A stretch of DNA of 34,254 nt, from IMG/VR virus record IMGVR_UViG_3300020470_000095, positions 1 to 34,254 of that record; one strand, written 5' to 3'. The DNA is from a virus. Below are positions 9,061 through 30,502 of the stretch, one piece after another. The notes beneath the pieces were generated by a model. The model did no database searches, had not been told where the DNA came from, and worked only from the letters and a program-made list of their open reading frames with translations. Numbering within the stretch: position 1 is the stretch's first letter; each line of letters opens with the position of its first letter. The position numbers were made by a program, and so were the translations under genes.

Positions 9061-12000
9061 TACCTTAGTGTAATCGAACTACTGTTCCCTTCCTTCTCTA
9101 AATTAACTAGAGCTTTTCTTATTTCAACAGCTGCTTTTCTAGCAGACATTCTATCTGCAGGTATTCCAGTAACATTAACATTTAAATTATTTACCATTAT
9201 TCCACCACTAGCACCACCTATTCCTGTAGGTGTTACTCTTACTCCACTAGGACTAGGTGAAATTATTTCTGGACCAAACTCTCCTACTAAAGCTCTTTTA
9301 CCTACTGATAAAAAACCACCTGTATGTAAAACTTTATCTAAGAAATCTTTATTATCTTCTATATTAGGAGGATTTACAACAAAATCATCTACACCTAAAT
9401 CTGGAAATGGAAGAGGTGATATGCCAGCTTTAGCATAAATATTATTTATTCTTTTTTCTATTGATTCTATTTGTGCGTGAGCTTCAGATACATCAAAGTT
9501 CATTCCTAAATTATTAGCTATTTCGCCTACTTCAAAAAGTTTTGTTGTAGTTGAATCTAATTGTGTAACTAATTGATCAGACATAGTTGTAGCAGTATTA
9601 ATTAAATTATTAATTTCACTTTCAGGCATTCCAACAGCTTGAGCAATAGCTCTAAATTGCTCTTCACCTTCTGGACCAAGATTTATTAACTCTTGTGCTA
9701 AATCTATTAAACTTAATTTTGATAAGTATTGATCAAATTGAGCATCTGCTATTCCCCTTTGAGCTTTAGCTTCAGCTTCAGTTTGACCAGCAATCTTTTC
9801 TTTTAAATCATCAATTTCTTCTTGTAAATCTACTATTACTTGAGATTCTTCTTTAACACTTTCTTTTAAAAGATCAAACAAGTCTTGTTGCTGTTCTATC
9901 TGTATCTCTAATTTATCATTTTCTAATTTAAGCATCCTTTTGAAGTTTTCTTCATCTTCAAAACCTTCTATGCCTTCAGTGCTTCCTTGTAGCTCTGCAA
10001 GTCTTTCTCTAGCTGCTTGAACTTCATCGGCAGTTGCAACACCTCTTTTTTCAGCTTGCTCTAAGAAATCTAATTCTCTTCTAGCGTCTTTTATTGCAAG
10101 TCTTTCAGAAGCAGTACCTGTTCTATTTTCTGCATTTTTTAATTTTAATAATCTTAATTCTTGATTAATTAGGTCTAATCTTTCGTGACCTGTTACAACG
10201 CCTACATCTCCAAATTTCTTTACAGCGTCAGACATCCTGTCATTTAAATCTTCTAAATCTTTATTTAAATCTATTGTTGTTTGTAATTCATCTTGATAAT
10301 TTTTTTGAGCATCAGCTACTGCATTAGTTGCGTCTGCTTGGCTTCTTAATTGTTTTGTAAAATTAATAAATGTTTTAAATGCATCTTTTGCTGTATTTTT
10401 AAACTCTTGAAATCTTTTTTTAGAATCACCACTATTTAATAAATCATTTACTTCTTTGTTATATTGATCTATTGCATCTAATATTATTTGTTTCTCTTCT
10501 TCTAACCCAGCTACAAAAGATCTTCTTTCTGCATTTAAAAAACCTCCATATGGATTAGGAGTTGGTCTAGAACCCGGAGGAGCCATAGGGTCTGTAGGTG
10601 TTGTTTTAGGACCAAAGTTTTTTCTTATTAAATTAGGATCTATAACAATAGGTGGTGGTGCAAACTCTCCAAAAAAATCAAAGTCGCTAGCTGCTTGAAT
10701 TGAATCATCCATTGCCTTTATAACAGCCGCCTCTAAAGTTGGTTGCTCGTCCTCTACAGCTAGAGCCATACCTTTAACTGCGTCAATACCTAATTGTGGA
10801 ATAGGACCTTGAGTAGGAGGAGATGAATAATGAAATGCTATTTCTAATCCTTCTATAGCTTCTCCTAAAGCGTTTACTAAAGCTTCTTTTATTGTTGCTG
10901 CACCATCTGTAATACCATTAGATATACTGCTAGTCATATCAGAACCAACTCCGTAGAGTCTGTCTCTCAATTCACCACCACTAAGTTCTAACTCATCAGG
11001 TATCTCCATTAATCCTTGAATGAAAGCTTCTCTAGTTGTAGCTAAGTTTGCTTCAGCTCTTGTTGCTAGTTCAGGGTCAGCTAAAAATTGAGCAGCTGTT
11101 TCTAAAGCGGCAGGACCTTGTTCAGCTAAACTAGCAGCTAAAGCAATAAACCCTTGATCTGCTAAAGCTTGTATAGTTTCAAAAAATGTAGAACTTACAG
11201 CAGCTTGATCTTCTAGGTTTCTTACAGCTTCAGTTGCAGACAGTCCTATTTGTTCAGGAACTTTTTGAAACATATTAATAACACCTTCTGCAGATTTTTT
11301 AGCAATCTTCATAGTGTTGATATAAGCAGTATCCGATTCACTTAATGCTGTCATAATTTTTTGTGCGTTATCTGATTCTTGTTCTGCAAAAGCATCTTTT
11401 TCTGCTTGAAGTGCAGCCCTTACCGTTGCAGAGTGCTCCATATTTTTAATTTCTTCCATAGTCATTTCGCCTCTAGCAACTGCATTTAGGGCTTCTTCTC
11501 TACCAAGATTTCTTTCATTAATAATTTTTTTAGCTATTGCATCATCAGTCATTCCTATAAGAGTATTTTCTTCATCGTAAAGTTTTACTTTTTCAACCAT
11601 TGCTGCTGCAGAATCTATATCAGCCTGTTCTGCTGCTTCTTTAATTTGAAGTGCAGCTTCTTCAGTCATAGCTATGTCTTCTAGACCAAGACCTATTACT
11701 TCTTGTCTTTCTAAAGCTCTTATTTCCAAAGCTGCTCTTGCTTCAAGACCAGTATTTATATCTTCAAGAGCATCCATTTGGAACTGATATGCATCTGTTC
11801 CTTCTTGTAAACCTAGAATATTCAACAACTCTTCATTGCTTACACCCTTAATATCTCTTAAATCACCAGTTACTACTTCATTTACATAATTTTGAAACTC
11901 TGAAGCAGCTATAACTGGATCAACACCATTTAACAAAACATCTCTAACGAATTGTTCTGCAGACATTCTGAAACCTTGAGGAAGTAAATCAGCATTGTCA

Positions 12001-13835
12001 CCAAAGACTTCTTGTACTAATCTATTGAAACCACCATCGCCTGCTTTAGCTTTTTCTATTTGACCTTGAAATATTTCTTCTATGTTGTTTGCTAAATTAG
12101 TTTTGTCTAATTCTAATCCTGCTATTCCTTCAAAAAGAGTTATGTAATTTTTTAATTCACTTTCTGTTGGAGCGCTTTTTCCTGCTGTTACAAATACATC
12201 AGCTATTGCTTCTGCGTTAGTCATAATGCTTCCATCTTCAAGCCTAAATAACTCAAATGGTATTGACGTTGCTTCTTCAAATTCTTCTTTTCTAATTCTT
12301 ATAGCATCTGTTACAAAATCCATAGCTTTTAAAGGTCCAGTTCCAAAGTCCGAAGAATCTCCTAATAAACTAGCTAAAGATAAAGTATCTTTATTTCTAT
12401 TTACATCTCTTATTAAGCTACCAATTCGTTGAAAAGCTAATGCTGTAGCTGCTATTCCTGCCACAAATAATCCAATAGCTAAAGCTCCCGATTGTGATAC
12501 AGCTTGAATTGTAGCCATAACTCCAGCAAACAATGTTCCACTTTTAGCAGCATTTAGTAATACTTTTGTCAATATTTTGACACCAACCATAGCTGAAGCA
12601 ATAAAGAACATAAATCTACCCATACCCATAGCTTTTTCTGGATCTAATGCATTTACCATAGATTGAACTGAAAATATTATTTGTCTTAATGTAGGTAAAA
12701 ATCTTTCACCAAGCTCCATAGAAAATTCTTTATATTGATTTTTAAGTAACTGAAGCTGTTGAGCCGTAGTATTGAATTTTTTAGCTGCTTCTATTTCTAA
12801 AGCTATATTTGCTTCGTATGCATTTCTAGCTGTCATTAATGTATCTATTAACAATCCTCTAGCTTCAGCAAGACCTCCAATAGCTAACTGAGTTCTTCTC
12901 TGTGATAAGTTTAATTTTTGTAGAACATTCTGAACATTTTGTACTACATCTTCAGCATCTCCTAATCCTTCAATAAATCTTACAACAGTCATAGCTGCAT
13001 CTTCACCGAAAGACCTACTAAACTCTGTCACTGTCATTCCAGATATTTCAGCAAACAGTTGTAACTGTTCACCACCAGATTGAATAGCTCTTTGAATTTC
13101 TTGGAACACACGAGATACAGCAGTACCACCAGCTTGTGATGGAACACCAATAGCTTGAAGTGCGGTAGCAAATGCTAAAGCGTCTTGTGTAGATGCGCCT
13201 GTTTGTTCTGCAGCAGTTGCAATACGTAAAACTGTTGTTATGATTTCATCTTCAGTCGCAGCAAAGTTGTTACCTAAATCTACTAAAGAAGAAGCTGTTC
13301 TTTCAAAAAAGTCATCTAATTGTGCTTCAGGTATATTAGCAATAGCTCCTAACCTAGCTAATGCTAATGCAGCGTTTTCTGTACTTAATACAGTTGCTAC
13401 AGATAGTTTTGTAACAGTTTCAATAAATGTAATTAAGTTTCCAGCTTTAATACCTAACTGACCACCAAGTTCACCAACTCTTGCTAACTCTGTTGCAGCA
13501 ACAGGAAGTGTTGTGGCTAATATTCTAACTTCTGTTTCTAATTTCTTTATAGTTTCAGCGTCTGCGTCTACAGTTTTCTTGATACCAGCAAATGCGTCTT
13601 CAAATGCAATAAGGCTTCTTATACCACCAACTGTAGCTAAAGCTACACCAGCAAAAGATGCAGCAGCTGTAGCCAATGCTGTATTAGCAACCATAGAAAT
13701 ACCTTGAGTTGCTTTTTGTAACTGTGCATTCTGTTTATTAACATCTTGTAAGAATGCATCATTATCGACCATCTGCATTGACACACCAAGTGTCAATAAC
13801 ATTTCTGGTGATAACGTTGATGAGGCTTTAGCCAT
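9060..13835 (-). CDS. Tail tape measure protein
   Basis: 1591 aa, the longest gene. Residues 60-420 match the TP901-type tape measure core: FEDAFAGIKKTVDADAET, TTLPVAATELARVGELGGQL, and the run FVSQ-like ALQAIGVPSQAGGTAVSRVF. Residues 402-470 are hydrophobic (FMFFIASAMVGVKILTKVLL, then ALAIGLFVAGIAATALAF), the usual membrane segment. Two long coiled coils lie at about 1112-1207 and 1302-1367. The C-terminus KRALVGEFGPEIISPSPSGV is typical. It sets tail length (about 1.5 angstrom per residue in the family would suggest a tail near 240 nm) and helps DNA ejection. Starts eight bases inside the chaperone frame and ends sharing one base with a zinc microgene. Confidence 0.95.
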   Translation of the reverse strand: MAKASSTLSPEMLLTLGVSMQMVDNDAFLQDVNKQNAQLQKATQGISMVANTALATAAASFAGVALATVGGIRSLIAFEDAFAGIKKTVDADAETIKKLETEVRILATTLPVAATELARVGELGGQLGIKAGNLITFIETVTKLSVATVLSTENAALALARLGAIANIPEAQLDDFFERTASSLVDLGNNFAATEDEIITTVLRIATAAEQTGASTQDALAFATALQAIGVPSQAGGTAVSRVFQEIQRAIQSGGEQLQLFAEISGMTVTEFSRSFGEDAAMTVVRFIEGLGDAEDVVQNVQNVLQKLNLSQRRTQLAIGGLAEARGLLIDTLMTARNAYEANIALEIEAAKKFNTTAQQLQLLKNQYKEFSMELGERFLPTLRQIIFSVQSMVNALDPEKAMGMGRFMFFIASAMVGVKILTKVLLNAAKSGTLFAGVMATIQAVSQSGALAIGLFVAGIAATALAFQRIGSLIRDVNRNKDTLSLASLLGDSSDFGTGPLKAMDFVTDAIRIRKEEFEEATSIPFELFRLEDGSIMTNAEAIADVFVTAGKSAPTESELKNYITLFEGIAGLELDKTNLANNIEEIFQGQIEKAKAGDGGFNRLVQEVFGDNADLLPQGFRMSAEQFVRDVLLNGVDPVIAASEFQNYVNEVVTGDLRDIKGVSNEELLNILGLQEGTDAYQFQMDALEDINTGLEARAALEIRALERQEVIGLGLEDIAMTEEAALQIKEAAEQADIDSAAAMVEKVKLYDEENTLIGMTDDAIAKKIINERNLGREEALNAVARGEMTMEEIKNMEHSATVRAALQAEKDAFAEQESDNAQKIMTALSESDTAYINTMKIAKKSAEGVINMFQKVPEQIGLSATEAVRNLEDQAAVSSTFFETIQALADQGFIALAASLAEQGPAALETAAQFLADPELATRAEANLATTREAFIQGLMEIPDELELSGGELRDRLYGVGSDMTSSISNGITDGAATIKEALVNALGEAIEGLEIAFHYSSPPTQGPIPQLGIDAVKGMALAVEDEQPTLEAAVIKAMDDSIQAASDFDFFGEFAPPPIVIDPNLIRKNFGPKTTPTDPMAPPGSRPTPNPYGGFLNAERRSFVAGLEEEKQIILDAIDQYNKEVNDLLNSGDSKKRFQEFKNTAKDAFKTFINFTKQLRSQADATNAVADAQKNYQDELQTTIDLNKDLEDLNDRMSDAVKKFGDVGVVTGHERLDLINQELRLLKLKNAENRTGTASERLAIKDARRELDFLEQAEKRGVATADEVQAARERLAELQGSTEGIEGFEDEENFKRMLKLENDKLEIQIEQQQDLFDLLKESVKEESQVIVDLQEEIDDLKEKIAGQTEAEAKAQRGIADAQFDQYLSKLSLIDLAQELINLGPEGEEQFRAIAQAVGMPESEINNLINTATTMSDQLVTQLDSTTTKLFEVGEIANNLGMNFDVSEAHAQIESIEKRINNIYAKAGISPLPFPDLGVDDFVVNPPNIEDNKDFLDKVLHTGGFLSVGKRALVGEFGPEIISPSPSGVRVTPTGIGGASGGIMVNNLNVNVTGIPADRMSARKAAVEIRKALVNLEKEGNSSSITLR

Positions 13836-14127
13836 TATGTGTCTCTTCCATAAACTGTTCTATACTTATTTGTTTTCTTCTCATACCATCACGACCTCTA
13901 GCTTTATCTAGTTGTCGTTTATAGTATCTTCTATCTTGCTCTTCAGGATCTGTAATATAATCTTCACCTTCTTGAGCTGCACGATACATTGGTAAGTAAA
14001 AACTAGACTTATCAAAAGGTAAATTAGAAAGTAGTCTAATAAACTTTCTGTAGCCTACTTGAAGTGGCTGATGTATTTGATAATGTCGATGAAAATCTGC
14101 CTCTATTGCACCCCAACGTTCAACCAT
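13828..14127 (-). CDS. Tail assembly chaperone T segment (frameshift product)
   Basis: 99-codon frame, the second chaperone: ERWGAIEADFHRHYQIHQPL, FIRLLSNLPFDKSSF, then a basic end RRYYKRQLDKARGRDGMRRK. It lacks a ribosome site at its ATG (14127), but it is exactly the -1 frame of the upstream gene, open from the slippery site. I therefore read it as the C-terminal part of a G-T fusion, joined through seven linker residues (INFTPIE) after Lys120. The basic, conserved WGAIEADF start is typical of T domains. It ends eight bases inside the tape-measure gene. Confidence 0.88.
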   Translation of the reverse strand: MVERWGAIEADFHRHYQIHQPLQVGYRKFIRLLSNLPFDKSSFYLPMYRAAQEGEDYITDPEEQDRRYYKRQLDKARGRDGMRRKQISIEQFMEETHNG

Positions 14128-14154
14128 TTCGATTGGGGTGAAATTTATTTTGGG
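14109..14154 (-). promoter_or_regulatory. Programmed -1 frameshift signal
   Basis: In frame: C CCA AAA (CCCAAAA, 14154-14148), followed by a 7-base spacer and a hairpin with an 8-bp stem CACCCCAA / TTGGGGTG (14140-14133 and 14116-14109). After a bulged T there are two more CG pairs. The zero frame stops at TAA right after the heptamer; the -1 frame continues into the 99-codon frame without a stop. Every part of a standard frameshift signal is present. Confidence 0.88.
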
Positions 14155-14507
14155 GCTTCTTCGTCATCTCCTATTTCAGCAGTTTCATCAACCGCTTCTA
14201 CATTTGCAGCTATACCGTATTCTTTTAGTAAATAATTTAGCAAAGCTTGTAACTGCTCCCAAGATGCTCCATTTTCTAACATCTCATCTAAATTATCTTT
14301 ACCTACAATAGTAGCTAACCAATCTGGAATTTGAGCTGCGGACAGTTGACCAGTGTCATCCATAAACCTCAACTGAGACAATACTACCTTTGCAGGTAGC
14401 TCAGGTGGGAACTCATAATTCTTACCCGCTATTTTGACTTCGATAGATTTGTTGTCAGACTCTTCTACCGCAGCGTCAAAATCCATAAATCTTGCCTTGT
14501 CACTCAT
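14145..14507 (-). CDS. Tail assembly chaperone G
   Basis: 120 aa, GGAG upstream. Acidic and mostly helical: KIAGKNYEFPPELPAKVVLS, then LSQLRFMDDTGQLSAAQIPD and a C-terminal acidic end IGDDEEAPK. It matches the first of the two siphovirus tail chaperones, which bind the tape measure and bring in tube subunits. Its last codons, GCC CCA AAA TAA, contain an in-frame slippery heptamer that fuses it to the next frame in a minor product of about 226 aa. The tube-gene-before and tape-measure-after context fixes the identity. Confidence 0.88.
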   Translation of the reverse strand: MSDKARFMDFDAAVEESDNKSIEVKIAGKNYEFPPELPAKVVLSQLRFMDDTGQLSAAQIPDWLATIVGKDNLDEMLENGASWEQLQALLNYLLKEYGIAANVEAVDETAEIGDDEEAPK

Positions 14508-15288: not shown

Positions 15289-15588
15289 CTATTCCTCTTC
15301 TGAATACCATTCTTCAGAGGAGTCTTCTTCCACGACTTCGTTGTCCTCAACCTTGTCGGTAAGATCAACGCGCTCAATTACTTGGTTAGTAATGATTGAC
15401 TCATCTTCAGCAATGAAGACTTGTCCTTGCATATTGTCGCTCATTGGCTTCATATGCTTGCTCATATCTTTCCAAGTACTCTCTGAGACTTCTACCCAAG
15501 AATTCTTTGTAAAAAGAGTTTCATTACCATTAATTTCCCACCACACTTGTGTGAAAGGCATTAATGGATTAACTTGTACTTTTTTCAT
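15289..15588 (-). CDS. 99-aa protein with acidic tail
   Basis: Overlaps the terminator gene by ATGA. Residues 1-60 look folded with many aromatic residues (LMPFTQVWWEINGNETLF, WVEVSESTWKDMSKHMKP); residues 70-99 are almost all acidic (DNEVVEEDSSEEWYSEEE). I recognise no family. Its place before the tail tube gene and its acidic tail suggest a tail-assembly helper, but this is only context. The gap after it holds the dyad and promoter described separately. Confidence 0.6.
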   Translation of the reverse strand: MKKVQVNPLMPFTQVWWEINGNETLFTKNSWVEVSESTWKDMSKHMKPMSDNMQGQVFIAEDESIITNQVIERVDLTDKVEDNEVVEEDSSEEWYSEEE

Positions 15589-16055
15589 TCGTCATACCTA
15601 TATGTCATTCCTACAGTTATAGTATACAACCCCAACCCTGTTTCTGTTTCCTCTATTCGAGAAATTCCATCATAGATTTCAAACCCATAAATTAAGGCTT
15701 TTGATCCATCTGACAAGGTTATAGGGTCGTTTGATTCATTAAAAGCTGCTTCTTGAACAGCTGCAGCTAGTGAATATGCACCTGCATAATCAGCTTGTGC
15801 TGTTGTTCCAGACTCTCCCCATCTACCTGCATAACAGCTAACTGGGAATATAGCTTCTTCAATCAAAACTTCACTTCGAGGAAATACTGGAGTGCCTCCA
15901 GCTCTGAAATAAGTAAGAAAAGGTAACTGTGCATTTCTAGGTAATCTAGTTGCTATTCTTGTAGAAACTAAAGATGTTATTGGTGTTCTATTTAAACACC
16001 AAGCTCTGAATACTACTTCTGCATCAGGAGCTGATTTTTGTCTGTTACTTACCAT
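15585..16055 (-). CDS. Tail terminator / tail completion protein
   Basis: 156 aa. The pattern APDAEVVFRAWCLNRTPITS, ATRLPRNAQLPFLTYFRAGG, IFPVSCYAGRWGE, YAGAYSLAAAVQEAAF and a final VGMTYRYDE fits the tail-terminator family (DUF3168 / gpU-like), where an allowance of small chain values ends in a beta-strand. These cap the tail tube and join it to the head. Placement directly before the tail tube region fits. The start ATG lies three bases after the previous stop; the ribosome site is weak (AAAGA). It overlaps the next gene by ATGA. Confidence 0.7.
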   Translation of the reverse strand: MVSNRQKSAPDAEVVFRAWCLNRTPITSLVSTRIATRLPRNAQLPFLTYFRAGGTPVFPRSEVLIEEAIFPVSCYAGRWGESGTTAQADYAGAYSLAAAVQEAAFNESNDPITLSDGSKALIYGFEIYDGISRIEETETGLGLYTITVGMTYRYDE

Positions 16056-16058
16056 TTA

Positions 16059-19000
16059 CTATCTTTCTTCAAATCTTATTATATACCCTTTAGTTGATAG
16101 ATTAGGTCCTAATCCATCGTCATTAATAGCGTAAACACCTGCTCTTTCAGTTGTAACTCTTTTTACTGTTTCACCTTCTTCTTTATTAAACATAGCTCTA
16201 GCCATAATTGCATTAGTTATCATATTTTGAGCTTCTGTTTTACCTGCATTTGCAACTCCTGACATAAATTCTTGACTATATCTAACTATTCCATCTCCTG
16301 CACCTTGTTGAGTTTCAAATATATTTCTTCTACCAGAAGTACTACTATATTTAAATATTTCTCTTGTTCTGCCAGCACCACTAGGATGACCAAATTCTAC
16401 TCTAGGAGAAGATTTTACTTGACCTTTTCTTCCAACACTTTGATATAAGTAAATAGCTCTTGTAGGCATTTCTGGATCTCTAAATGCCAATGTGATATTA
16501 TTACCGCTTCTTTCAACTTTTGGTTTTACTTTTTTGAATGTTGCACCCGGTGCACCAGTAGGACTTGTTCTTTTTAAATTCATTTCATAATTAAATATTC
16601 CTAATTTATCAGCTTGATCTCTAGATTTAGTTCCTTTCTTAAAAGTAAAAACTACTTCAGTTAAGCTTTTTGATGGTGTATTTACTAATGTTGTCATTGG
16701 ATTAGTTAATCCTGCTCCTGAGTAGTTGTAAGCCAAATAAGATTGAGCTGTTGTCGGCATATTACGAGTAATTATTGCTGCTTGTTCAGACCCACCTAAT
16801 CCTTTAAAATGTGATGCTGTTAAAAATCTATTTTCACTTCCTTTAACTCCACCCATTCCACCGTGAAGTAATTTAGGACCAGCGTATCCTTCAATTCCTT
16901 CAGAAGTTGCTTTTAGAACTGCTCTTCGTTCAGCTAGTAAATAATTGCTTGTTCCTATATTTCTTGCGTTTGTTCCCGGACCTACGCCCATACCTCCAAG
17001 TTTTTCAGTTCTTCTGTTTATTCTTCCTTGAATAGAGTTTCTTCTTCTTCTTAATATTGTTCTATCTTCTTTAGCTACTTTTATTGATTTCCTAATTGCT
17101 TTAATTTCATCAACAAAATCAGCTGCACTTCCTGTACCCATTTGGCTTATGTCTCTTCTGGTTTTTCCTGCATACATTGTTGTAGCGCCTTCATAAGATA
17201 TTGAACCACCACTTTTCTTTACTCCTGTTACAAAGTAATCACCTGCGTTTTTAGATATAAGAGCACCATCTGTAGTTTTAAGGAAATCATCATAAGATTT
17301 TTTACCTTCAATTTTTCTGATTTCAGCTAAAAACTTTTCACCTGTGTATACATTTACAGCTTCTAATTGTGCTAAATATTCTGTTCTTGTAGTTCCTAAT
17401 GTTTTTAATTCCATAAGTCTTTTCTCGCCTGTAGTAATAATGCTATCAAGCCTGACAATTTCTTGTTTTACATTATTTAACTCTGCTTCGAGAATAGGAA
17501 GTTTAAATCGACCTGTAGTAGGATCGTAAGCAACGTGTCTTCTTTCATAAACTGGTCTTTCATAACTAACTGTTTTCTTTTTTCTCTTACCTTTAACTTT
17601 TCTTTGATAAGTAACTGTTTTTGTTCCTGTTTGAACTTTCCTTTTACCACTCATCTTTCCAAACTTAATATTTAAATCGTCAGCAATTGCACCCATAATT
17701 TTTGTTTGCTCACCTTCCAATATTTTTGCATATTGTGGATTTTTACGTAGTTCATTGACATAATGCTTACCAGCAGTTCTTCTTCTTTCTTCTGCTGAAG
17801 ATATTTGAACTTTACCTTTTCTAGCACCAACAGAAGCAGCAGCTGTTGGGTTTACAACTTCTATTCCAAATATTTTTACAAATTTATCAAAATCTACAAC
17901 TTCTAGTTCTACTTTACCTTTTCTTTTTATAACTTTTACAGCACCTTCTTTTTGTGCATAAGCAATAGTTTGATTTGCATTCATTCGTACAGTTTTGCCA
18001 CCTACTTGAACTTCAAAAGCAACTGTGCTTGATTTTCTAAGATCTACTGCACCAACAGTCATATTATATTTTTTATTAATTACAGCAGTAGGAGGCATAA
18101 GTATATCGTCTTTATACCTATTACCACCAGCAGTATATTTTCTAGCCTTACCTCTACCTTTTGCTTTTAGTGTTTGAACAGGAGCGTAAATAGGAACCAT
18201 ACCTTCAAAACCAGTTAAAGCACCTGCACTAACTTCTGTAACTTCACCTTTTTTATATTTTTTTGTTTTATCGTCATATACTGATTTTCTAACTTTAGCT
18301 TTTCTTTCACCTTGCAATATCAACATAGTTTGTTTAGCGCCTTCTTCTATTGCATCTAAATCTAAACCACCTTTCATCCATTCTGGAACTTCTTTACCTG
18401 TTGCACCAAAGTAATTAAACACAAAGTCATCAACTTCTGCACCTTGAACATTTTGCCAGTTTGGATTTGATTGATATGGATTTTTACCACCTTTGTAATT
18501 TAAATGTTCTTCACTACGTTTTTTAGCTTTTCCACGTTTTGTTTTCTTTTCAAATTGTTTTTGCCAAACTTCTCCATCTTTAGTCAACCACATATAACGT
18601 AGAGCATCTGCTCTTTCACTAGAAACAACTTTTACAAGATTTGCCATATTGTTTTTATCTATTTTTTTACCTGCTGCTTTTGCTTTCTTTCTACCTTCTT
18701 CGTCTAAATAAAATTTAGCTAAACCTTTTACACCTATCTTTGCGTATCTACTAGCAAACTGTAAAGATCTTTCGGCAAAATAAGAAGGAGGTAAAGGTTT
18801 TGGTTTTTTTGGATTTTTAGGATTGAACATTAAACCTCCGAAGTTTGCAATCATTGCATAAGGAGCTTTGTCTGCAGTTGTAGAAGTAGCAGTTGCTCCA
18901 CCAATTCTTATTTCCCAAAGTGCAGCAGTGTAAGCATCTGGTTTATAAACAGGGTCCATCAACCAAACAGATTCAGCTAAGTTGTTTGCGTGATAATTTA

Positions 19001-19598
19001 CTCTTCTTCCACCCGGTCTTTTTTCTGAAAACTTAGTTCTAGGTATTGTCACTTGAAGACCCATAGCTACAATTCCTTGAAGCATATCTCCAAACTGTTT
19101 TAAGTTTCCAGCACCTGTCATAGCTTTATAAAATTTAGCTGTAGTCTTTGGACCGTTTCTTTTAAACATTGCAGATGTAACTTTGTGTAGTCCTTTTTGT
19201 GCAAGTGGCTGTATATAACGGCTTCCTATATAACGACCAGCAATATTGTCAGGAAGAATAGAACGTATCATTGCGTTAGATGCTTGACCAACAACTCTAC
19301 CACCAATAGACCTTGGTATTCTTCGTGCAATAGCAGCTGGTCCTGACCTAATAGCTAGAAGGTTTCTAAAGCTTTTAAGACCACCAGCTAAAGAGTTAGA
19401 AAGTGGATTTATAATAGCTTTAGTACTAGGTAATGTTGCAGCTACATCTCTAAACCTACTTAATACACTGTAACCAACACTTGATAATCTGTTAACCGCC
19501 TTACCACCGGGTTTGCCTTTTTTACTTTTAAATGGCTCGCCTTTGTGTTTAGCGTTTTGAACGCCTGCATCTCTAGGTCTGCCTGATCCCGTAACCAT
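16059..19598 (-). CDS. Giant basic protein with HK97-gp10-like segment
   Basis: 1179 aa, highly Lys/Arg-rich. By position it replaces the roughly 120-aa HK97 gp10-like tail-completion protein, between closure and tail terminator. Residues about 195-300 resemble that family: LAESVWLMDPVYKP, LWEIRIGGATATS, the signature ADKAPYAMIANFGG, and PPSYFAERSLQFASRYAKI. The other ~1050 residues match nothing I know. They include a basic N-terminal region with Arg/Gly helices (1-190), Lys-rich stretches such as KKTKRGKAKKRS, a coiled-coil segment near 700-790 (EAELNNVKQEIVRLDSIITT), and a Gly/Ser-rich C-terminal region ending YAINDDGLGPNLSTKGYIIR. It could be a neck protein, an ejected DNA-binding protein, or carry an enzyme. 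Start is the ATG six bases after the closure stop, with a weak AGAGAG. Confidence 0.7.
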   Translation of the reverse strand: MVTGSGRPRDAGVQNAKHKGEPFKSKKGKPGGKAVNRLSSVGYSVLSRFRDVAATLPSTKAIINPLSNSLAGGLKSFRNLLAIRSGPAAIARRIPRSIGGRVVGQASNAMIRSILPDNIAGRYIGSRYIQPLAQKGLHKVTSAMFKRNGPKTTAKFYKAMTGAGNLKQFGDMLQGIVAMGLQVTIPRTKFSEKRPGGRRVNYHANNLAESVWLMDPVYKPDAYTAALWEIRIGGATATSTTADKAPYAMIANFGGLMFNPKNPKKPKPLPPSYFAERSLQFASRYAKIGVKGLAKFYLDEEGRKKAKAAGKKIDKNNMANLVKVVSSERADALRYMWLTKDGEVWQKQFEKKTKRGKAKKRSEEHLNYKGGKNPYQSNPNWQNVQGAEVDDFVFNYFGATGKEVPEWMKGGLDLDAIEEGAKQTMLILQGERKAKVRKSVYDDKTKKYKKGEVTEVSAGALTGFEGMVPIYAPVQTLKAKGRGKARKYTAGGNRYKDDILMPPTAVINKKYNMTVGAVDLRKSSTVAFEVQVGGKTVRMNANQTIAYAQKEGAVKVIKRKGKVELEVVDFDKFVKIFGIEVVNPTAAASVGARKGKVQISSAEERRRTAGKHYVNELRKNPQYAKILEGEQTKIMGAIADDLNIKFGKMSGKRKVQTGTKTVTYQRKVKGKRKKKTVSYERPVYERRHVAYDPTTGRFKLPILEAELNNVKQEIVRLDSIITTGEKRLMELKTLGTTRTEYLAQLEAVNVYTGEKFLAEIRKIEGKKSYDDFLKTTDGALISKNAGDYFVTGVKKSGGSISYEGATTMYAGKTRRDISQMGTGSAADFVDEIKAIRKSIKVAKEDRTILRRRRNSIQGRINRRTEKLGGMGVGPGTNARNIGTSNYLLAERRAVLKATSEGIEGYAGPKLLHGGMGGVKGSENRFLTASHFKGLGGSEQAAIITRNMPTTAQSYLAYNYSGAGLTNPMTTLVNTPSKSLTEVVFTFKKGTKSRDQADKLGIFNYEMNLKRTSPTGAPGATFKKVKPKVERSGNNITLAFRDPEMPTRAIYLYQSVGRKGQVKSSPRVEFGHPSGAGRTREIFKYSSTSGRRNIFETQQGAGDGIVRYSQEFMSGVANAGKTEAQNMITNAIMARAMFNKEEGETVKRVTTERAGVYAINDDGLGPNLSTKGYIIRFEER

Positions 19599-19604
19599 TA
19601 GTTA

Positions 19605-19940
19605 CTACTCTCTATATAAACAAGATGCTACTGTATAACAGTCTTCTCCCTTTGCATCCCTTTGTGCTGTAATGCCAGTAATTTCGTAATACTTAGTTCC
19701 GTCTTTGATTCTATCGTTTGCTTTTATAGTTACTTGGTCATCAAAGTAAATAGTAATACCTTCAATAATTGTATTTCGTCCATCTCTATCTTCAACGCTT
19801 CCATTTTTAATTAATCTACAATTTGCGTTTGTATATAGAGTTGACCAAGTGTTTGATGGATTACCTCTATCGTCAACTCCAGAAGTTGTTATTCTTTCTA
19901 CGTTTACTTGATCTATTAATAAGTTTGTGTTGAGAGCCAT
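19605..19940 (-). CDS. Head closure / head-tail joining protein
   Basis: 111 aa. The pattern DQVNVERITTSGVDDRGNPS, TLYTNANCRLIKNG, VTIKANDRIKDGTKYYEITG and a C-terminal AQRDAKGEDCYTVASCLYRE matches short beta-barrel head-closure proteins of the SPP1 gp16 / HK97 gp7-like type, which plug the connector and bind the tail. Length is typical (100-120 aa). It follows the accessory island and lies six bases before the giant gp10-like gene, matching normal order adaptor-closure-gp10-terminator once the island is removed. Confidence 0.75.
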   Translation of the reverse strand: MALNTNLLIDQVNVERITTSGVDDRGNPSNTWSTLYTNANCRLIKNGSVEDRDGRNTIIEGITIYFDDQVTIKANDRIKDGTKYYEITGITAQRDAKGEDCYTVASCLYRE

Positions 19941-19970: not shown

Positions 19971-20303
19971 TTAGAAGAAATCGTCTACGAAGATAGGTCC
20001 ATATTCACCATAAGACACTGAATATATACTATGACCAAAAAAATCTAACGCCATTTGCCAAGCTTGATCGTCTTTTGTCATACCAGTATCATATTCATCT
20101 TCCCAATCAATACTTTTATCATCTATATATTCGTTATATAAATTGTTGACAATTATACCTTGTGAATAAGCAACACACTCACCTAAATTAGGAACTGATG
20201 CTACCCCTAGTATTGCATTGTCGTGTCCTTCAAGCATTTCTGCTTCAGGATTAGCATCCTGTATATATCTAATTACTTCCTGTATCTTCTGTTCCTGATT
20301 CAT
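19971..20303 (-). CDS. 110-aa acidic phage protein of unknown function
   Basis: ATG preceded by AAGGA eight bases upstream; it overlaps the HNH gene by 35 bases. It is strongly acidic, with patches AEMLEGHDNAILGVASVPNL, IDDKSIDWEDEYDTG and a C-terminal SVSYGEYGPIFVDDFF. I recall similar small proteins in phages and bacteria with a closing GxYGPxFV pattern, but without an assigned role. The acidic profile would also fit a DNA mimic. No signal peptide or membrane span. Confidence 0.6.
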   Translation of the reverse strand: MNQEQKIQEVIRYIQDANPEAEMLEGHDNAILGVASVPNLGECVAYSQGIIVNNLYNEYIDDKSIDWEDEYDTGMTKDDQAWQMALDFFGHSIYSVSYGEYGPIFVDDFF

Positions 20304-20574
20304 TCCACTTTCCTTTTAAATACGCTGTAAGCAACATTCTAAGTTCATACTTACTGCCCTGATACTGTCTACCATCATAAATATCGTGATGATACATACA
20401 GAGAACTGCAACATTTTCTGGATCATATTTTCTTTTTTCATTACCACCCATTCCTTTGCCGTGTATGTGAGCTAACTGTAATTGAGATGTCTTAGTGCAT
20501 CCAGCCCATTCACATTGATTATTAGCTCTCATAAATGCCATAAGCCTAAGCTTCGTCATTCGTTCATCTGCCAT
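20269..20574 (-). CDS. HNH endonuclease
   Basis: 101 aa from the ATG at 20574; the longer in-frame ATG at 20631 would run through the terminator. The fold signature is NNQCEWAGC, then QLAHIHGKGMGG, YDPENVAVLCMYHHDIYDG: paired zinc Cys (QCEWAGC), the first catalytic His in AHIHG, the Asn in PEN, and the final His pair. HNH enzymes cut DNA with one metal ion. In many phages an HNH protein sits beside terminase and aids packaging, or is a mobile homing nuclease. Here it sits in the connector module with its own terminator and promoter, more like a mobile insertion (inference). Its end overlaps the next gene by 35 bases. Confidence 0.85.
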   Translation of the reverse strand: MADERMTKLRLMAFMRANNQCEWAGCTKTSQLQLAHIHGKGMGGNEKRKYDPENVAVLCMYHHDIYDGRQYQGSKYELRMLLTAYLKGKWNESGTEDTGSN

Positions 20575-20580
20575 AAATAG

Positions 20581-20586
20581 ATTATA
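20581..20586 (-). promoter_or_regulatory. Candidate -10 box, leaderless HNH transcript
   Basis: TATAAT on the minus strand, six bases (CTATTT) before the HNH ATG at 20574, just after the terminator. A start at the usual distance would put +1 on the A of the ATG. There is no Shine-Dalgarno. The terminator immediately upstream makes a promoter here functionally necessary, which strengthens the call. Confidence 0.55.
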
Positions 20587-20596
20587 GTGGAAAATA

Positions 20597-20624
20597 CAAA
20601 AAGCTGGGTTTTTACACCCAGCTT
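20597..20624 (-). terminator. Intrinsic terminator
   Basis: Minus strand: AAGCTGGGT, loop GTAAAA, ACCCAGCTT, then TTTG and further T-rich sequence. A perfect 9-bp stem, a 6-base loop and a U-run make this the best terminator in the window. It lies between the zinc-finger gene and the HNH gene, so it ends the upstream transcript and leaves the HNH gene needing its own promoter. Confidence 0.75.
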
Positions 20625-20696
20625 CTCGCAATCAATTAAGGAGGCTACTTATGTTCTGTGAAAGTAATGGTTAATTACTTAAGATCATTTATAACC
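20600..20696 (-). ncRNA. Candidate ~100-nt small RNA with anti-Shine-Dalgarno motif
   Basis: The interval between the candidate promoter and the intrinsic terminator contains no minus-strand gene. The predicted RNA would include half of a dyad (GTAAT(T)GGTTA / TAACCATTAC, 20702-20692 and 20673-20664), a single-stranded CCTCCTTA (20644-20637), and a terminal GC-rich hairpin. CCTCCTTA is complementary to the AGGAG(G) ribosome sites that precede most genes here. The opposite strand reads as AAGGAGG plus a 7-codon ORF (ATG at 20651), an alternative explanation. Inference from signals only. Confidence 0.35.
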
Positions 20697-20702
20697 AATT
20701 AC

Positions 20703-20732
20703 ATTATACACAGAAACGTTAATTTATTACAA
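20703..20732 (-). promoter_or_regulatory. Candidate promoter for a small RNA
   Basis: Minus strand: TTGTAA (20732-20727), an 18-base spacer, then TATAAT (20708-20703). It starts at the end of the zinc-finger gene and would begin a transcript near 20696, with no gene before the terminator at 20601-20624. Confidence 0.4.
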
Positions 20733-21368
20733 CTCTTTTTGACGGTTTGCTTTTCGATGACACAGCATACAAATTGATTCTCTTTTGTTTCTGTCTTTTT
20801 TTGATTTAGCATATTTATCTAATGGTTTTTCTTTTGTACAAACTAAACATACTTTACTATTTTCATCAGACTTTATAGTTTCTTTATATTGTTTAGTAGC
20901 TTCTCTAAGACCAACTAAACATTCTTTACAATACTGAGTGTATCCACTTTTATACTTTTGAGATCTTTCAAATTCACTTACGTCTTTTTCTTCTTGACAC
21001 TCTAAACATTTTTTCCAAGTAGGATTCCAAGATAGCTTTTCTGCTTTAGCCTTTGCTTCTTCTACTCTTTCAACAAGTTCAGGCATTTCTTTCATCCAAG
21101 CCTTAAACCTCTCATAACCTATTGGAAGTTCTTCATATGTTTTTGTTGTTGTTAAAGAACCTTTTCCTTCTGCAATTCTAGTTAAAACAATTTCAGCTAT
21201 TTCAGAATTGTAAGCTGACCTAGGTGCAACACCTGCTTGTTCTCTTAATTGTCTAACTCTTTCATCAGACACTCCCCATTCTTTAGCCCATAAAGATAGC
21301 TTTTTATGTGGTTCAGATAAAAATAAATCCCTAGCTTCTTCTACTGTTGGTGCTATTCTATTTGGCAT
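20727..21368 (-). CDS. HTH plus double zinc-finger DNA-binding protein
   Basis: 213 aa, strong GAGGAGGAA before the ATG. Residues 20-50 form a helix-turn-helix (LSLWAKEWGVSDERVRQLRE), and residues 70-110 a second helical segment resembling terminase-small or transposase-type DNA-binding helices (TTTKTYEELPIGYERFKAWM). Two Cys4 modules follow: KKCLECQEEKDVSEF...YCKEC (about 118-147) and KVCLVCTKEKPLDKY...ICMLC (about 172-203). Such paired modules occur in phage nucleases related to endonuclease VII and HNH, but no catalytic His is evident. A DNA- or RNA-binding regulator or a nuclease partner is plausible. It is inserted in the connector module, next to the HNH gene. Confidence 0.65.
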   Translation of the reverse strand: MPNRIAPTVEEARDLFLSEPHKKLSLWAKEWGVSDERVRQLREQAGVAPRSAYNSEIAEIVLTRIAEGKGSLTTTKTYEELPIGYERFKAWMKEMPELVERVEEAKAKAEKLSWNPTWKKCLECQEEKDVSEFERSQKYKSGYTQYCKECLVGLREATKQYKETIKSDENSKVCLVCTKEKPLDKYAKSKKDRNKRESICMLCHRKANRQKEL

Positions 21369-25088: not shown

Positions 25089-27749
25089 TTATTTAGTGAT
25101 GTCAGATATGATTCTTAGACTAGAAATAGGCATTGTGACTCTTCTATCTGTTCTCTTATGTGAGCCATCTTCCATTATTGCCCAGACCTGCATAGTAGCT
25201 TCTTTATCCTGACTATTTACAGATACAACAACACCGTGAACTACTGATGGTGGTTGTGGACTTTTATCTATACTCCAAGATACAGATTGACCTGTTCTAA
25301 CAGATTCTGCTTTCTTACCTCTTTTTTTTGCTGGATGTCCTGCTGGTAAAAGATCGGTGTCATAAGGTGTTCTTTTAAATCTACCAGTTCTTAATGCTCT
25401 CAAAAACCCGTTAACTCTGGCTAACGCCCACTGGTCAGCAGACCTAACGTTACCTCTAACTGAACCCGGATTTGTTCTGTAAGCTCCAACACCTCTATTA
25501 AATACTTTAGCTAAAGTTCCTGTTGTTGTTCTAAACTTAGGATTACCTGCGTTATGCTTAGTTACTTTATCTGCTAAAATTTTTCTAATTCTTGCAGATA
25601 CGGCTTTCATCGCCATTTCATCAGCTAGGTCAGCAGCTTTCTTTCTACGTTCTCTAACAAGTTTTTTTCTTTCAGAAATAATTTCTTTCATTTTTGATTC
25701 GCCTATATTGAGAACACCACCCCATTTGATAGCAGCTATAACACCATTTAATCTTTTATCGTTTTGATGTCTACCCATATAACGTTCTCTTCTTCTTACC
25801 CAGTTAAGAACAGATTCACTTCTATCACCTGATTGATATGCAGTCCATCTTCTAAAAGCATCATTGCCTGTAAATGAAGTTGGAGGGTTGCCGCCATTGC
25901 CAGCCATTCTCCAGATCTCTCCCCAGTTCTCTTTTAAGTCTTTTGCATAAGCATAAGGAAATTGTTTATATTTTGAATTTGTAATTCTAACAGCTTGATT
26001 CATACCCGGACTTGGAAAGTTAGTGTCATCTTTTGCTTTTTCTTCTGGACTATGCAAATCGTCACCTCTCTCGTACATTGCTTCTGCCTCTTCTAAGCTT
26101 ACCTTAAGTTCCTCAACCATTTTGTCTATATAAGATTTTTTTGTATTTTCATAAGAGTCGTGAGAAGCACAAGGCATATAATAAGTCATACCTTCTATTT
26201 CGTGTTCGTGAGAACCTTCACAGCCTATTTGCTTTGCTCTTTCTTCTGCAGCCTCTCTACTAACAAACATATCCATACCTCTTGTAGGTCTTGTTCTTAT
26301 TGTTTGCCTAGTGGACTCTGGAGCTCCATCACCTGTGTCCATAACATCTTTAGTTTCTACATCTTCTTCTAAACCAAATGTTTGATCAATTCTTGCAGGA
26401 GGTATCTCTAAAGGATCATCTTCCCCAACAGGTACACTTGGGTCTTCTGCATCTTCTTGAGCAGGTTTACCAGTTGCTTCAACTTGTTGCATATTAAGTG
26501 GTCTTAAATAAACATTGTGAGAATCATCAGCAGCTAAGCCAACTGCATTTCTAGCTTCACCTATTGTTGCCCAACCACCTGAAACAGCAGTGTTCATTCT
26601 TTTATAAAGTTCATCTTGATCTTGTGATAATGCTCTTACATCTTCTACTTGATATTTACAATATACATTGTCATTGTCATCAAACTCTGGCAATAATTGA
26701 TATGTAAGTTCTTCTGCAACTGTTCTCCATAAAGGAACAAGTTTTTGTTCTGTAAAATATTCTCTTAGTTCTCTTGTATTATTATAAGTTGCTGAATTTA
26801 AACCAGCTCCTAATCCTGCAAGAACAGCAGGTACACCCATAACAGCTGCAACTCTTTCTTCAGGCAATCTTCTAAGTTCAATTAAGTTCATATCTGCAGG
26901 GCTAAAAGAAACTACATCAATATTCATAGCTCCAGTAAGAACCATTGGCATACCTCTATTAGCACCACCAAATTTAGATTTATACATCTCTGAAATAGCT
27001 TCTGCTTCTTCTCTAGTTGGACCACCCATAGCATCTGATGAAGGAGAAAGTATAACTCCCGGTATTGCCATATTGTGTAATAAAGCAGTAGCATATTGAC
27101 CTGCTGCTTCGTCTCCAAGTATTTCTCTAAGAACAGTTTTTATAGGTGCATATCCTTTTCTATGATCGTTAGGGTCTATACCTGTTCTAATGTGAATTAC
27201 ATCTTTAGTTGGTAAATCAACTGTGTCTGTAGTTGGTGTGTATTCGTAATGAGTAATCAATCTTTCTGTATTGCCTTTTGGATTTACAAAAGCAGGCATA
27301 AGAGGAACTAGTTGTACAACTTGTCCTTTTTTATTTCTGTTTTTATAAAGATAAGCATCTCCTTCTACGCTAATAGCAGACACTAAGTAATGTGAAAGTA
27401 TTGCACCAGACATAAAAGGATTAGGTCTTTTAAATAATTTTGAAACAGGATGTTTAGCAAGAACTATATCTTGACCAACTTCATCTTCCTTCATAACATT
27501 TAATTTTGGTTCAGCAAAAGCTGTAGCCAAAACAGAAAGACAAGCGGCAACTGCGGAGTTACCAGAACCATTGCCAATGTCTTCTAATTTATCAGAAGGA
27601 AAGTATCCTGATTGTGTATTGTATCCATATACAGATCTATCTAGCGCTGACGCTAGTGATTGATTATAATTTAATCTTTTTAATTCTTCTCTCCCAGAAG
27701 GAGTGAAACGTTTCGTAAATCTTTGAAACGCGTTTAACTCTTCAGCCAT
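25089..27749 (-). CDS. Portal protein with long C-terminal extension
   Basis: 886 aa; AGGAGATAA precedes the ATG. Residues 1 to about 430 are an HK97-type portal: GNGSGNSAVAACLSVLATAF near the start, RPNPFMSGA, EGDAYLYKNR, the stretch ending VIHIRTG, and MGVPAVLAGLG. The portal dodecamer is the DNA channel. HK97-type portals are usually 380-480 aa, so the second half is extra. It holds a segment GCEGSHEHEIEGMTYYMPC (about 507-525), a domain FPYAYAKDLKENWGEIWRMAG followed by Trp/Arg-rich helices (about 605-715), a segment GVGAYRTNPGSVRG...QWALARVN (about 743-806), and a small beta domain (about 819-884) resembling the hypervirulence-associated TUDOR-like family. I recall these modules in other phage proteins, not usually on a portal. 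Whether the extension is cleaved off is unknown. Confidence 0.88.
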   Translation of the reverse strand: MAEELNAFQRFTKRFTPSGREELKRLNYNQSLASALDRSVYGYNTQSGYFPSDKLEDIGNGSGNSAVAACLSVLATAFAEPKLNVMKEDEVGQDIVLAKHPVSKLFKRPNPFMSGAILSHYLVSAISVEGDAYLYKNRNKKGQVVQLVPLMPAFVNPKGNTERLITHYEYTPTTDTVDLPTKDVIHIRTGIDPNDHRKGYAPIKTVLREILGDEAAGQYATALLHNMAIPGVILSPSSDAMGGPTREEAEAISEMYKSKFGGANRGMPMVLTGAMNIDVVSFSPADMNLIELRRLPEERVAAVMGVPAVLAGLGAGLNSATYNNTRELREYFTEQKLVPLWRTVAEELTYQLLPEFDDNDNVYCKYQVEDVRALSQDQDELYKRMNTAVSGGWATIGEARNAVGLAADDSHNVYLRPLNMQQVEATGKPAQEDAEDPSVPVGEDDPLEIPPARIDQTFGLEEDVETKDVMDTGDGAPESTRQTIRTRPTRGMDMFVSREAAEERAKQIGCEGSHEHEIEGMTYYMPCASHDSYENTKKSYIDKMVEELKVSLEEAEAMYERGDDLHSPEEKAKDDTNFPSPGMNQAVRITNSKYKQFPYAYAKDLKENWGEIWRMAGNGGNPPTSFTGNDAFRRWTAYQSGDRSESVLNWVRRRERYMGRHQNDKRLNGVIAAIKWGGVLNIGESKMKEIISERKKLVRERRKKAADLADEMAMKAVSARIRKILADKVTKHNAGNPKFRTTTGTLAKVFNRGVGAYRTNPGSVRGNVRSADQWALARVNGFLRALRTGRFKRTPYDTDLLPAGHPAKKRGKKAESVRTGQSVSWSIDKSPQPPSVVHGVVVSVNSQDKEATMQVWAIMEDGSHKRTDRRVTMPISSLRIISDITK

Positions 27750-30145: not shown

Positions 30146-30502
30146 TTAGTCTCTCAATCTGATAGTCAATAACCAAATTACTGTAGATATGACTATCGCT
30201 ATACCTACAATATCTTGTGCTGTTCCGGTTAGTGTAAACCAAGCTATAAAGAAACCAAGTAGAGTAAATATCTGAGCTATAGATTCTTTTACTGCATCGA
30301 TCAACCATTTACCGAAAACTTTTAATAAGCTTGGAATTGATTTTACGAACTTAATTAATTTTCTCCAAGACCACTTGAAAGAAACAACTATACCTTTGTA
30401 AGTTTTTTTCAAACTAAACCATAAGCCTTTTATTGAATTAAGGACTATATAGTAAGGTAGTCCGATTAAATCATTCAAACCATTTATAATTTTTTTAATC
30501 AC
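30146..30502 (-). CDS. Small basic membrane protein, holin candidate
   Basis: 118 aa, GTG start with AGGAG seven bases upstream; start and upstream stop share one base (TAGTG). The N-terminal two thirds are amphipathic and strongly basic with many Lys and Trp (for example LIKFVKSIPSLLKVFGKWL). The C-terminal third has two hydrophobic spans, roughly residues 77-93 and 97-114, ending in RLRD. A small two-span membrane protein next to two other small membrane proteins suggests a lysis cassette (holin or antiholin), but I recognise no named holin family. It is immediately followed, one base after its stop, by a 12-codon Cys-rich ORF. Confidence 0.6.
   Translation of the reverse strand: MIKKIINGLNDLIGLPYYIVLNSIKGLWFSLKKTYKGIVVSFKWSWRKLIKFVKSIPSLLKVFGKWLIDAVKESIAQIFTLLGFFIAWFTLTGTAQDIVGIAIVISTVIWLLTIRLRD

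Follow-up and report, generated by a model that had tools for sequence, protein, structure and literature searches.

What kind of protein is a chain of 1179 aa encoded between the head-closure and tail-terminator genes of a phage, in the slot that belongs to gp10 in HK97? The gene is a single ORF in the window, as we call the whole 34,254-nucleotide stretch analysed here, an IMG/VR virus contig from an uncultured phage. For the upstream neighbour, Hc1, the match to Pfam Phage_HCP (E 0.0015) falls under the cut-off, and the downstream terminator is followed by the major tail protein (MTP) and a 1591-aa tape measure. The preliminary description had placed the gene in the HK97 gp10 slot, and the neighbours uphold this: in all size classes of relatives it is flanked by Hc1 and the tail terminator and precedes the MTP, the terminator call itself being weak by Pfam. 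The protein has a net charge of +104, in line with the earlier remark that its extra mass is very basic, and contains no Cys; almost all other virion proteins of the window are neutral or acidic. Compared with L001, its closest relative (92% identical), dN/dS of the ORF is 0.27 overall, 0.17 in the core, 0.15 at the C-terminus and 0.46 in the middle, where constraint is relaxed. Since purifying selection thus acts along the full length, translation of the entire ORF is supported. The regions of the protein and its two neighbours are given in the table.

Table. Regions of the 1179-aa protein and its flanking genes, in window coordinates.
Feature	Residues	Position	Strand	Basis
Hc1 head closure, upstream neighbour		19605-19940	minus	PHROG 501 head closure/adaptor, E 3.7e-07
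Whole gene, putative overgrown tail-completion-like protein, class A	1-1179	16059..19598	minus	ORF; purifying selection vs L001; slot conserved in many contigs
Basic N-terminal extension	1-109	19272..19598	minus	alignment A12
gp10/tail-completion-like core	110-300	18699..19271	minus	homology to compact 324-352 aa slot proteins; low-confidence predicted helix-sheet-helix
'P...L..S' loop	185-210	18969..19046	minus	alignment and coordinates; motif counterpart of 80alpha gp51 TGN55L
PYAMIANFGG loop	246-255	18834..18863	minus	Y247 matches Y78 of 80alpha gp51 by motif
Class-A-specific extension, moderate conservation	301-580	17859..18698	minus	alignment A3
Small predicted beta-beta-alpha-beta-beta-alpha unit	528-577	17868..18017	minus	AlphaFold2 pLDDT about 55-84
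Fast-evolving middle of extension	581-960	16719..17858	minus	8-25% identity to more distant class A members; dN/dS 0.46
Predicted long helix, probably coiled coil	699-733	17400..17504	minus	pLDDT 83-88 over most
Predicted long helix, probably coiled coil	825-869	16992..17126	minus	pLDDT 81-88 over most
Conserved class-A C-terminal region, ends in RFE	961-1179	16062..16718	minus	alignment A3; dN/dS 0.15
Probable tail terminator, downstream neighbour		15585-16055	minus	Pfam PF11367 gp17-like, weak, E 0.02; syntenic family A1 conserved

Related loci were collected from viral contigs by a capsid search and then by terminator, tail-protein and Hc1 searches, and the sizes of their slot proteins were read from the contigs, excluding ORFs truncated at contig edges. 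The homologues fall into five size classes within one uncultured phage group: compact (324-352 aa), D (608-683 aa), A (1047-1238 aa, including the window), B (1108-1317 aa) and C (1670-1791 aa). Each class is monophyletic with support of 96-100 in a midpoint-rooted tree of concatenated Hc1, terminator and MTP sequences (78 distinct sets), which branches as compact versus ((B,C),(A,D)) with support of 85-100. The window protein is hence not the oddity of a single phage; the entire clade carries an enlarged slot protein, in graded sizes. Between the window and L004, identity amounts to 63% for Hc1, 72% for the terminator and 95% for the MTP, and to about 25% for the 1179-aa protein. In tblastn searches of 50,697 phage genomes no size class found a match, and neither did the MTP and terminator of the window; Pfam, PHROG, NCBIfam and PDB sequence-family searches with the window protein and the size classes gave no acceptable match either, which bears out the initial impression that no known family has such a layout. 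As a separate observation, one class D slot gene (L149:4575-6616) is split into ORFs of 331 and 315 aa, with the core-bearing part apart from the rest, through a frameshift or an assembly error.

The connection to gp10 runs through the small members of this series and through an outgroup. Four related contigs (L021-L024) carry slot proteins of 187 aa in phages whose MCP and TerL are about 48% and 44% identical to those of the window. HK97 gp10 itself reads APVRTGKL ... FYWRFVELGT ... AHPFVRPA, and the compact class bears the corresponding signature AP-x-x-[S/T]G-x-L-x-x-S-I. When the 3,207 ORFs of the loci were searched with [AT]P-x(1,2)-[STR]G-x-[LM]-x-x-[NSG]-[IV], only compact-class slot proteins and the four 187-aa outgroup proteins matched; the window reads IPR...NNLAESV at this site, with a short insert between, and departs from the exact pattern. 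An ordered pattern of three motifs was dropped as too rigid, missing both references and window. Both of the 187-aa proteins that were compared with PF04883, HK97-gp10_like, exceed its Pfam cut-off (27.6 and 28.5 vs 21.4 bits), and two of the 187-aa proteins rank first with an HMM built from gp10 references. At the same cut-off PF04883 matches neither the window protein nor any size class, and because the window protein fails this model we do not file it as a member. Weak matches of the reference HMM in class A, B and C proteins were discarded as noise, being off-register with the core. The proposed profile check of the cores against gp10 references likewise came out not significant, in a test so insensitive that the outgroup gp10 itself reached only E 0.025.

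Among the enlarged proteins, homology can be followed from class to class. The compact class matches class A by BLAST (E 2.7e-08, with L027) and by hhalign (3.1e-11); further hhalign links connect class D with the compact class (7e-11) and with classes A (9e-09), B (4e-09) and C (1e-06), and classes B and C match each other with E 1e-36. What is shared is an N-terminal core of about 300 aa, common to all five classes, whereas outside the core sequence and hhalign comparisons detected no homology between classes. The outgroup thus has a true gp10 in the slot and the compact class a form with the gp10 signature, to which the giants are homologous; this chain underlies the tail-completion assignment. 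We consider it very probable that the core of the 1179-aa protein is of the tail-completion kind (HK97 gp10, lambda gpZ, SPP1 gp16.1; Ne1); for the window protein this is the most likely assignment, and synteny, the homology chain and the motif are what it rests on. Published members measure 56-231 aa (PMC4362835) or 112-255 aa (PMC11099176). The resulting range of 56-255 aa is not a strict criterion; the window protein lies outside it, in a group that spans 324-1791 aa.

Across the classes the core runs in the same order, from a conserved Arg/Gly-rich stretch through a helix ending in AP, L-x-x-S, beta strands, an aromatic YGG loop and P-x-F-F to a further helix. In the window protein, residues 110-300 are laid out as helix, AP, L-x-x-S, beta, aromatic YGG loop, PP-x-F and helix, with APYAMIANFGG at residues 245-255 and PPSYFAERSLQ at 270-280. 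That a gp10-like segment is embedded in a larger protein, as the preliminary description had it, is thus retained; its span of residues 195-300 is not, as the core begins near residue 110, after the conserved Arg/Gly-rich N-terminal region. This Arg/Gly-rich segment (approximately residues 78-122) is conserved in classes A, D and compact, and R78, R93, G100, G104 and R122 are invariant in 36/36 rows of alignment A12. Single-sequence AlphaFold2 was useless (pLDDT 36) and a model from 36 rows was poor (mean pLDDT 47.7), yet the predicted element order of the core, at a pLDDT of about 45-68, agrees with the tail-completion fold of two long helices and a small beta-sheet. In BFVD, the viral structure matched best is annotated 'Putative tail component' (201 aa; prob 1.00, E 0.0019; the matched query region is not displayed). 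A match to a solved structure was not obtained: for the 36-row model the PDB list gave no fold match, 80alpha gp51 included, and consisted mostly of coiled coils and chance matches with E above 0.6.

The neck of 80alpha shows where such a core may lie. There, gp51 is a monomer in the neck channel, its residues Y78, F81, N55 and R87 touch the DNA end, which Y78 caps, and its two terminal helices form a bundle with the tape measure (PMC11661146). N55 lies within TGNL and R87 within EFGTR. By motif, the AP/TG loop is the insert site in classes B, C and D, with inserts of about 60-620 aa; in class A, as seen in the window, the AP loop is short and the added length is a long C-terminal extension. 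Because N55 and R87 contact the DNA end in 80alpha, the insert site and the YGG loop would adjoin the expected DNA contacts. In the alignment of classes A, D and compact, the column of Y247 holds Tyr or Trp in 36/36 proteins; the position that corresponds by motif in B and C is mostly Asp. If the 80alpha layout, known from one structure, applies here, the C-terminal extension of class A would exit on the side of the tape measure.

Furthermore, slot protein and tape measure carry opposite charges, +104 and -101 in the window, and across the loci almost every slot protein is basic and almost every tape measure acidic. Averaged by class, slot protein and tape measure lengths (in aa) are 334/1246, 639/1422, 1140/1505, 1252/2369 and 1706/2372; the two lengths correlate across classes (Spearman 0.80 overall) but inconsistently within them, leaving at best five phylogenetically linked points. 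Tape measure ORFs reach 2914 aa in classes B and C and measure 1191-1593 aa in the others. We favour a luminal role in view of the channel position and of the opposite charges of extension (basic) and tape measure (acidic). We envisage that the core would sit in the neck channel, between the packaged DNA end and the top of the tape measure, as 80alpha gp51 does, and that the large basic extension, about 880 residues, would lie in the tail lumen alongside the acidic tape measure. The extension might retain both DNA and tape measure until a channel into the cell opens, and the slot protein would then leave with both at infection. Slot, homology chain, signature of the compact forms, size series and charge contrast are observed here; channel location, luminal extension, holding role and ejection we infer; an enlarged tail-completion protein with this entire mechanism has, in our view, about an even chance of being correct. 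More tentative is the idea that the tail-completion protein has turned into a second basic, 'tape-like' protein of the lumen, paired with the acidic tape measure and growing with it across lineages, a single chain then serving as plug, DNA clamp and ejected protein. For T5, the proposed tail-completion protein has been assigned to the tail tip rather than the neck (PMC11784142), which calls for caution, as a neck location is then not universal.

An alternative, which we regard as rather unlikely, is that the core is anchored at the neck while the extension forms an external appendage, a whisker or collar fibre touching the host surface. The slot protein does evolve far faster than its neighbours (about 25% identity vs 63-95% for flanking neck and tail genes), long helices are predicted, and the class-specific extensions lack detectable homology to each other, all as might be expected of an appendage. 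However, the luminal tape measure is also fast, with 43-46% identity to distant class A members and a dN/dS of 0.30 that is similar to the 0.27 of the slot protein. Moreover, Pfam, PHROG and NCBIfam searches gave no fibre or adhesin family, the protein is strongly basic whereas the tail proteins of this phage are acidic, and the 80alpha tail-completion protein is internal and monomeric (PMC11661146).

Less probable still is an ejected cargo, in which the core would serve as a packaging adaptor for an extension that acts in the host, by binding or condensing incoming DNA or by countering defence. The very basic composition without cysteine, the rapid class-specific change of the extension and the inferred position beside the first DNA to leave would suit such a cargo, but neither an enzyme nor a counter-defence family was found in Pfam, PHROGs or NCBIfam, and the class A extension has no conserved catalytic-looking residues. 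The hidden enzyme once suggested for this protein was rejected as unsupported by the family searches, in any class, and by the alignment of class A. That an unrelated structural protein displaced gp10 from the slot, its resemblance being confined to short motifs, is quite improbable, for although the window core has no HMM or profile-profile support, the specificity of the motif, the syntenic true gp10 of the outgroup, the homology chain and the best viral fold match speak against it. A repeatedly enlarged tail-completion protein thus remains our best reading.

Several other features of these loci deserve mention. A heptamer CCCAAAA lies on the minus strand (window 14127-14160) just before the stop of a 120-aa ORF (14145-14507), where a -1 shift would enter a 99-aa ORF (13828-14127), as in the lambda gpG/gpGT tail chaperones. 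The portal protein (25089-27749, 886 aa) is extended at length on its C-terminal side, where it matches DUF3721 and, weakly, DUF5824; pieces of it also match an extended protease gene in some relatives. Between adaptor and Hc1 the window has three extra genes (19971-21368), for a 213-aa protein with CxxC pairs, an HNH-like protein of 120 aa and an acidic one of 110 aa, which are present, partly present or absent in relatives. Directly upstream of Hc1, L019 carries a 392-aa ORF (9494-10672) and most class D loci (among L118-L159) one of 389-394 aa. Finally, a very acidic 976-aa protein (30502-33432, net -146) contains a poly-Thr run and stretches resembling fibronectin, and is a possible surface or fibre protein.

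Tail-completion proteins are nearly universal among long-tailed phages that have this type of neck, and their place and action have been disputed, between the neck interior (80alpha), the tail tip (T5) and DNA routing (SPP1). In SPP1, gp16.1 helps terminator loading and directs the DNA into the cell (PMC11099176). The related phages studied here provide a natural size series, from about 190 to about 1790 aa and with inserts at the presumed DNA-contacting loop, in which function can be approached part by part; the series also shows that very large additions to the neck protein are tolerated or exploited. Several-fold growth of a normally small protein that plugs the head-tail junction and keeps hold of the DNA end is also a new way to probe its poorly understood role in DNA injection. 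Altogether, the enlargement of this widespread neck protein is real and unusual, and the giant form, which would work as a tail-completion protein does, is most likely derived from one.

With HK97 gp10, SPP1 gp16.1 and lambda gpZ, the group shares the place of the gene after head closure and before the tail terminator, a core predicted at low confidence as helix-beta-helix and, in the compact class, the order of motifs from AP-x-x-TG-x-L to aromatic-YGG/E-x-G-T; it differs in the added N-terminal region and in an AP/TG-loop insert or long C-terminal extensions. The 187-aa gp10 of L021-L024 comes after the head-tail adaptor in this same module, but is unexpanded and has no separate Hc1 family match beside it. 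80alpha gp51 (PDB 9mu2 chain P), a tail-completion protein whose position in the neck has been solved, resembles the group in that, by motif, the residues with which it contacts the DNA end fall into the same two loops. It is, in contrast, a monomer of 115 aa whose tape measure is described as predominantly positive, whereas the window group combines a basic slot protein with an acidic tape measure.
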